A stretch of DNA of 8,636 nt from Candidatus Altarchaeum sp. (GTDB lineage: Archaea; Altiarchaeota; Altiarchaeia; Altiarchaeales; Altiarchaeaceae), in NCBI GenBank assembly GCA_018260755.1, contig JAGTWP010000030.1, forward strand, positions 1 to 8,636, given 5' to 3'. The notes under the pieces were generated by a model that was given only the letters and a program-made list of their open reading frames with translations, had not been told where the DNA came from and did not search any database. Shown here piece by piece: positions 944-2,275 of the stretch. The stretch's first letter is position 1. Every line of letters begins with the position of its first letter. The translations under genes were made by a program, and so were the position numbers.

Positions 944-1792
944 TTAAAGTCCAGAAACCATGTTCATATCACTTACAAGTAAATTCCCACTATACATCTG
1001 CATTTTAACAACAATTCTTTTTTCAACATCAACCCAGAAAATGATTTTTCCTTCATCTCCAGTCATCTGTTTGCTTTTGACCTTCATTTCAACTTTAAAA
1101 CAATCTCTTTTATTAACTTTCTCTTTTTCATTAACTTGATATTCAATTGTTTCTATACTTGGTGCACTCCCAAAGGATGTATCCTCGGCATTTACTTTCC
1201 ACTTGAAATTATCAGTTAAGGAAAGCATCCATGTTGCAAACATACCATTTCCGGATATCGAAGCTGCGTCCTTGCCCATTGTAATCTCTTGTCCACCTAT
1301 ACTTGTTACTATCTTCAGTATCTCACCATTCTCTTTATTTATATAACTTTTTGTTTCAGTAGTTATGTTCATAATTGCACCTGTTTGCGGATCTTGCATC
1401 TGACTTGTCTGTGAATTAACTACAACATAGTAATCAGTGCTATTAATTCGTTCTATTTTGTCAACAGAATAAACACTTCTCAAAGTATTTGAAACTCCTT
1501 GCATTTGTGTGGTTGTTTCATATTCAAATTTCTTTCCTATTTCAAACTGTGGTTTCGCGTTTGGAATAAGTTTTTCACCAGAGATTTTAACATTATACTC
1601 TGCAGCAGGTTTTGTTGTGTTTTCTACGTAAGAACTTTCATTATTTTGAATAGTATTATTTTTAGGTTGTTCTGTTGGATTTTTATCATTTGAAATTAAA
1701 TATAGCCCACCAACTAATAATATTACTATTCCTGCTATTGATATCAGCATTAATAAATTATTTGGTTTTGTCATTTCTTTTAGATAGTTCAT
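944..1792 (-). CDS. Membrane-anchored exported protein, beta-rich, unknown function
   Basis: A 282-residue protein from ATG 1792. A TTG lies one codon upstream and an ATG six codons downstream (1774) is equally possible. Residues about 11-32 (LLMLISIAGIVILLVGGLYL) form a single membrane helix, with a lysine and asparagine-rich polar linker to about 60 containing several N-x-S/T sites. The rest is predominantly beta-like, with alternating polar and hydrophobic residues and repeated Y-x-V stretches (TDYYVVVNSQTSQM, DCFKVEMKVKSKQM, IIFWVDVEKRIVVKMQM). The strand-rich pattern ending in a charged strand recalls LolA-like or lipoprotein beta-sheet folds. That is a fold impression, not a family assignment. 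It probably faces outside the cell, anchored by the N-terminus. The start overlaps the 3' end of the upstream small membrane-protein gene by 35 bases, so the two were probably translated from one message. No function is assigned. Confidence 0.8.
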   Translation of the reverse strand: MNYLKEMTKPNNLLMLISIAGIVILLVGGLYLISNDKNPTEQPKNNTIQNNESSYVENTTKPAAEYNVKISGEKLIPNAKPQFEIGKKFEYETTTQMQGVSNTLRSVYSVDKIERINSTDYYVVVNSQTSQMQDPQTGAIMNITTETKSYINKENGEILKIVTSIGGQEITMGKDAASISGNGMFATWMLSLTDNFKWKVNAEDTSFGSAPSIETIEYQVNEKEKVNKRDCFKVEMKVKSKQMTGDEGKIIFWVDVEKRIVVKMQMYSGNLLVSDMNMVSGL

Positions 1793-2125
1793 CAATTTTT
1801 TTATTTATTTCATCAATTTTTTTGTCCATATTATTTCCTAAAAGAAATACAATCGCAGCGGAATATCCCATAAGACCTACCGTTGATGTATACTCCACAA
1901 CGGTGAAAACTGCGCTTTTTGTAGCACATTTTTCAAACTTTCATGAAATTTAACAATTACCCACAAGAGCATAAAAATCTGGGATTTGTTGGGGAAAGAT
2001 TTGAAAACTCAATTTATGAAGTTGTGCAGTATAGTTAAATTTCCTATTCCATTCCCTATTATAGTTGTTCCGAGACTAATAACACCTAATATTGCAAACC
2101 CTACTGCCTTACCATCAACATTCAT
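1758..2125 (-). pseudogene. Small two-helix membrane protein gene split by a MITE
   Basis: Two adjacent short ORFs are one broken gene. The 5' part (2125-2009, 38 codons) begins MNVDGKAVGFAILGVISLGT; the 3' part ends at 1758 and carries GYSAAIVFLLGNNMDKKIDE followed by a heptad-like charged tail. A 145-base inverted-repeat element at 1889-2033, bordered by TA on each side, separates them. Deleting its 141-base core and one TA restores a single frame across the joint, ..GNLTTSTVGLMGY.., giving 74 residues: two hydrophobic helices (about 8-29 and 35-50) and a C-terminal coiled-coil-like segment with repeated KKIDE. In-frame sense codons continue upstream of ATG 2125, so the true start may be earlier. 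The 3' end overlaps the next gene by 35 bases. Function is unknown. The 3' half could still be translated from GTG 1898 or ATG 1871. Confidence 0.8.
1889..2033. mobile_element. MITE-like element with TA target duplication
   Basis: The ends are inverted copies: TATACTCCACAAC at 1889-1901 and GTTGTGCAGTATA at 2021-2033, 12 of 13 bases matching. The outermost TA on each side is best read as the duplicated target, as in the IS630/Tc1 group, leaving a 141-base core (1891-2031) with no transposase. Excision restores the host reading frame exactly, which independently confirms both ends and the TA duplication. It must have been moved by a transposase encoded elsewhere; none with matching ends lies in this window. 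Confidence 0.85.
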
Positions 2126-2170
2126 TTTTTGTATATTTTGTTCGCTCTTATACTTATTTTTATTGATTAA

Positions 2171-2182
2171 AATAATTTATAA
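2171..2182 (-). promoter_or_regulatory. Candidate TATA box for the small membrane protein operon
   Basis: On the minus strand this reads TTATAAATTATT, resembling archaeal TATA boxes. It lies about 46 bases before ATG 2125, leaving room for a start site and a short leader. The surroundings are so AT-rich that this match is weak evidence. Confidence 0.35.
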
Positions 2183-2189
2183 CATTTTT

Positions 2190-2275
2190 AATTAATATTT
2201 GAACATATAAAATGAATGAATGAATAAATAAATAAATATCTAATATAAATAAATTAATATTTGAACATATAAAAT
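2190..2275. repeat. 24-bp direct repeat flanking tetranucleotide tracts
   Basis: Identical 24-base copies lie at 2190-2213 and 2252-2275, with core ATATTTGAACATATAAAA. Between them is a tetranucleotide tract, AATG units passing into AATA units (about 2211-2238). Each repeat contains a TATA-like CATATAAAA on the plus strand and TTTTATATG on the minus strand. The rest of the gene-free stretch 2126-2329 is simple A/T sequence with no supportable gene. Confidence 0.7.

Follow-up and report, generated by a model that had tools for sequence, protein, structure and literature searches.

Evidence for the recent insertion of an IS630-type MITE at a TA dinucleotide within a small archaeal gene, probably for a membrane protein

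Results

The stretch of DNA that we analyzed (the window; 8,636 nucleotides of Candidatus Altarchaeum sp.) comes from an archaeal draft genome of 1,319,019 bases (1.32 Mb) in 78 contigs that is approximately 85% complete. Two short open reading frames (ORFs) on its reverse strand lie beside an element of 141 bp with ends TATACTSCACAAC and a TA on either side (Table 1), as a preliminary description of the locus had stated. The inverted ends, 1889-1901 and the reverse complement of 2021-2033, are identical at 12 of 13 positions, as that description also held, with the flanking TA counted in the 13. No transposase ORF is found within the element in the ORF list, and an Rfam search of the window gave no match. 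When 143 nt (1889-2031) are excised so that one TA is kept, the flanks form an ORF of 74 codons with no stop codon at the joint; the pre-insertion joint reads GGAAATTTAAC-TA-CATCAACGG. This reconstruction had likewise been proposed, and its length is that of an intact paralog at C40.

Table 1. Features of the interrupted locus (window positions) and the full-length IS630-family element
Feature	Position	Strand	Description	Basis or remark
MITE core	1891..2031	.	141 bp, non-coding, ends TACTSCACAAC	Bounds set by the C50 and C33 copies and by empty sites (paralog, repeat R)
TA, one copy of the target-site duplication	1889..1890	.		Excision that keeps one TA brings the reading frame into line with the C40 paralog
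TA, second copy of the target-site duplication	2032..2033	.		Paralog join and repeat R empty sites
Left terminal inverted repeat (with TA)	1889..1901	+	TATACTCCACAAC	Subterminal AACTGCGCTTTTT matches IS630 5' end
Right terminal inverted repeat (with TA)	2021..2033	-	TATACTGCACAAC	Subterminal ATTGAGTTTTCAAA matches IS630 3' end
5' part of the 74-codon gene (one TA included)	2032..2125	-		tblastn to paralog, 73% identity
3' part of the 74-codon gene, stop codon included	1758..1888	-		tblastn to paralog, 80% identity
Short ORF	2125..2009	-	38 codons	
Short ORF	1898..1758	-	46 codons	Opened by GTG inside the element
GTG in MITE end	1896..1898	-	Start of the 46-codon ORF	Possibly used
Downstream gene	944..1771	-	275 aa, weak LolA_like match, hydrophobic N-terminus	ATG overlaps the small gene's end by 14 nt
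Dispersed repeat R copy	2143..2194	-	At least 52 bp, sharp end in ATAAGAGCG	C33 MITE lies inside another R copy
Full-length IS630-family element	L038:1369-2506 (C36)		1,138 bp with both TAs	Ends TATACTTCACAAC / TATACTGCTCAAT

Under a first-order dinucleotide model of the window, inverted TA-ended pairs of this kind are expected by chance approximately 0.5 times per window, and at least one occurred in 24 of 60 simulated windows. The bare inverted pattern is thus not improbable by chance, and the case therefore rests on the recurrence of the element and on its empty sites.

The proposal to look for the core in related genomes proved productive, as the element recurs both in its own genome and in three congeneric species. 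One own-genome copy (C50:11993-12137) is identical to the window element over 145/145 bp, and another (C33:37421-37565) differs from it at 4 positions. With unlike flanks and only 0 to 4 differences, the three are near-identical copies at unrelated sites, and each (3/3) is bordered by TATA on both sides. That the window copy and the C50 copy are the same points to recent movement. In the C50 region L002:1144-1648, a 107-codon ORF, perhaps all that is left of a larger gene, lies directly upstream of this identical copy. Among the 100 relatives searched, the element was present in exactly three species, all of them other members of the genus, in copies that are mostly 137 to 286 bp long. G002 carries at least 8 full-length relatives of about 140 bp with approximately 70% identity, G001 has copies of 163 to 286 bp with similar ends and dissimilar interiors, and G003 has a single copy. 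Exact-pattern scans with the MITE sequence found nothing in general genome contigs and viral contigs, collections in which the own and near records are possibly absent.

The paralog (L004:1407-1631) consists of exactly 74 codons. Its alignment with the joined window flanks has no gap and shows 203/222 bases and 56/74 residues to be identical, which makes the paralog an empty-site counterpart of the interrupted gene. The encoded joined protein has two hydrophobic segments, with 19-residue Kyte-Doolittle means of up to 1.96 and 1.79, followed by a charged tail rich in lysine and glutamate (DKKIDEINKKIDELSKRNDK). Of the two helices and coiled-coil tail that had been suggested, it is these two segments and the charged tail that we recover, and, as judged from hydropathy and sequence, the product is probably a small, two-helix membrane protein. 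The protein search that had been advised retrieved the paralog, but no homolog beyond the own genome: searches of 60 other related genomes and of viral contigs retrieved none, and PHROGs, NCBIfam, and Pfam gave no match above threshold.

These negative searches could be taken to mean that the short ORFs are spurious, that the element lies in non-coding DNA, and that the 74-codon join is luck in an A+T-rich sequence, all the more as the antisense strand of the block has no stop in either copy and the lack of any synonymous difference leaves no sign of purifying selection. We nonetheless regard this explanation as unlikely, because an independent copy that differs at 19 bases is free of indels and retains the start, the stop, and the length, because the frame encodes two hydrophobic segments and a charged tail, and because an 18-nt leader ahead of the ATG is conserved in both gene copies.

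Between the two copies of the gene (1758-2125 minus 1889-2031 versus L004:1407-1631), 18 codons differ, all of them (18/18) non-synonymously (dS = 0), and the last 21 codons are identical. Such an all-non-synonymous outcome has a probability of about 0.002 to 0.008 under random substitution, a figure that applies to one pair examined post hoc, and the excess is at most a hint of diversifying selection in this single pair. A broader interpretation would see the split gene as one of a lineage-specific pair of small membrane proteins that diversify fast under positive selection, with repeat R at the block boundaries and with MITE insertion as one route among several by which copies are silenced or swapped. 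It strikes us as quite doubtful.

The LolA-like gene whose start overlaps the small gene belongs to a large paralogous family that is represented in all 4 genus members; the own genome has 11 matches and G003 has 19, some of them in tandem. Its product is predicted to be secreted. No small gene similar to the 74-codon one was seen upstream of the LolA-like paralogs. The C40 paralog lacks this LolA-like neighbor and is followed, a few bases past its stop codon, by repeat R, which abuts the paralog on its 3' side, whereas in the window it abuts the small gene on its 5' side. A gene beside the C40 copy is presumably ribosomal L35Ae-like. Copies of R, which contains a TATA-box-like stretch, occur on C2, C19, C33, C34, C40, C53, and C57, and R may represent one end of a further mobile element.

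The window contains further repeats. A second element at 2329-2545 has perfect 13-base inverted ends (TATTTGTTTAGCT) at 2353-2365 and 2527-2539, and with 62 to 81 matches per genome in four genus genomes it represents an exceptionally abundant repeat family. The motif ACGAACGAAGTGAGCGT stands at 87-103 and 151-167; allowing up to 2 mismatches, it occurs 60 times in the own genome and 25 to 109 times in other genus members, with 0 occurrences of a reversed control. A relic of an IS1595-type transposase, of which only the zinc ribbon is left, lies at 292-432 (PF12760, E value of 2e-7). The assignment of the host to the archaea is supported by a match to an archaeal-type FBPase (PF01950) and by the presumed L35Ae-like gene next to the C40 copy.

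Besides the paralog, two further sites allow the state before insertion to be compared. The C33 MITE lies inside a copy of repeat R, and other R copies cross the same point with a single TA. At C36, a full-length IS630-family element interrupts a hydrophobic ORF, whose frame is restored, as an ORF of 200 codons, only when exactly one TA stays and not when TATA or no TA is kept. Together, the window gene set against its paralog, the C33 copy in R, and the C36 element in its ORF establish that the target duplication is TA. The bounds of the MITE are fixed by the C50 and C33 copies and by the empty sites, so that the non-autonomous, TA-targeting element is indeed defined to the base, as had been claimed. 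The expectation of empty sites was borne out by the paralog and by the R copies at the C33 point, but a sequenced allele of the window locus that lacks the element was not found, the empty counterpart there being the paralog only.

The TATA on both sides of all three own-genome copies might instead indicate a 4-bp (TATA) target and an element that is not of IS630 type. To this we give practically no credence, since a TATA duplication would shift the frame of the window locus relative to that of its paralog and would leave the C36 gene broken, since the empty sites of the R repeats have a single TA, and since IS630 elements in both ANME archaea and bacteria also start with TACT after TA.

The preliminary description had pointed to an IS630/Tc1 transposase with such ends, and the C36 gene sits between ends of the same kind. 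Its 347-codon frame matches NCBIfam NF033545 (transpos_IS630; E value of 4e-61) and PF13358 (DDE_3; E value of 2e-27), and the conserved D, D, and E motifs are seen in the alignment. The frame has one in-frame TAG, located at the position of a Q in intact relatives from ANME-1 and ANME-2 archaea, which have 345 codons and 74 to 76% identity. The gene hit by this element encodes a putative, hydrophobic membrane protein, possibly a flippase-type transporter; a Pfam search with the tested part of the interrupted ORF gave no match.

ANME IS630 elements have 5' ends of the form TATACTC(A/G)GCACCG...TGCG(C/A)TTTTT and 3' ends of the form TATACTTCACACC...TTGAGCTTTTTCAAA. The left end of the MITE (TATACTCCACAACGGTGAAAACTGCGCTTTTTG) fits the 5' pattern, and its right end (TATACTGCACAACTTCATAAATTGAGTTTTCAAA) fits the 3' pattern. 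Beyond the shared 13 bp, the similarity score of matched ends was reached by 0 to 20 of 2,000 shuffles and that of crossed ends by 43 to 1,314 of 2,000, and the matched pairing beat the crossed one in every comparison, with own-genome and ANME IS630 elements alike. As its left and right ends match the IS630 5' and 3' ends, respectively, we assign the element to the IS630-type MITEs; its two ends stand in the same order as those of an IS630 element, which is what an origin from such an element by internal deletion would predict.

Our searches of the draft genome revealed no intact transposase with matching ends, and the remaining IS630 genes of the genus are either truncated or from other subgroups. 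The C36 element was the only full-length one that the draft genome yielded; given its in-frame TAG and ends that are not identical to those of the MITE, it need not be the mobilizing one.

Discussion

We are close to certain that 1891-2031 is an IS630 (Tc1/mariner-like) MITE (miniature inverted-repeat transposable element) that recently entered a 74-codon gene at a TA; the gene would encode a small membrane protein, probably with two helices. We infer that this MITE would be mobilized in trans. In such a scenario, an IS630 transposase would cut the MITE-type element at its ends from another site and paste it into a TA by 3'-OH attack at positions staggered by 2 bp, and gap repair would then double the TA. 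The insertion would cut the small protein short after its first helix. It may also exert polarity on the overlapping downstream gene, and the GTG contributed by the MITE end could partly rescue the expression of that gene.

The "removal" of the MITE describes the state before insertion, not precise excision. One might suppose instead that the MITE acts as a reversible switch, with precise excision in some cells restoring the small gene. Near-identical copies, which speak for recent movement, and the cut-and-paste mode in which IS630-type elements move (PMC2170065) would suit such a switch. We hold it to be very improbable, however, because only the paralog, and no allele of the window locus itself, is element free among the sequences and because the draft genome yielded no intact transposase with ends that match.

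MITE insertion is a well-known sort of event and involves no new mechanism, but the evidence is unusually complete here, as three independent empty-site comparisons support a clean definition, exact to the base, of a family of IS630-type MITEs from an archaeal genus that is uncultivated. Insertions of this sort can hide small genes from annotation. Furthermore, the likeness of the C36 transposase sequence to those of ANME-1 and ANME-2 suggests an exchange of elements between distant archaeal lineages.

Archaeal MITEs are known from Sulfolobus, halophiles, and others (PMC10969869). The Sulfolobus elements SM1 to SM4, SMN1, and SM3A are similarly short and non-coding, have inverted ends, and are mobilized in trans by a matching IS, with SM3A reportedly relying on ISC1058 and SMN1 on ISC1733 (PMC10969869, PMC3718332); they belong to other hosts, and our comparison is one of descriptions rather than of sequences. 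ISY100 of Synechocystis, a bacterial member of the IS630 family, is excised by double-strand breaks and pasted into TA, which is thereby doubled (PMC2170065). Unlike the MITE, ISY100 is autonomous, and it is likened here by mechanism and not by end sequences. The closest systems within the IS630 (IS630-Tc1-mariner) family are the ANME-1/ANME-2 elements (PQXF01000005.1, QBUL01000156.1, and PQXF01000004.1). Whereas the window element is only 141 bp long and has no transposase, the likeness to these elements comprises the TA target and its duplication, the TATACT... ends, a DDE_3 transposase (in the C36 element), and a left/right end asymmetry that they have in common with the MITE.
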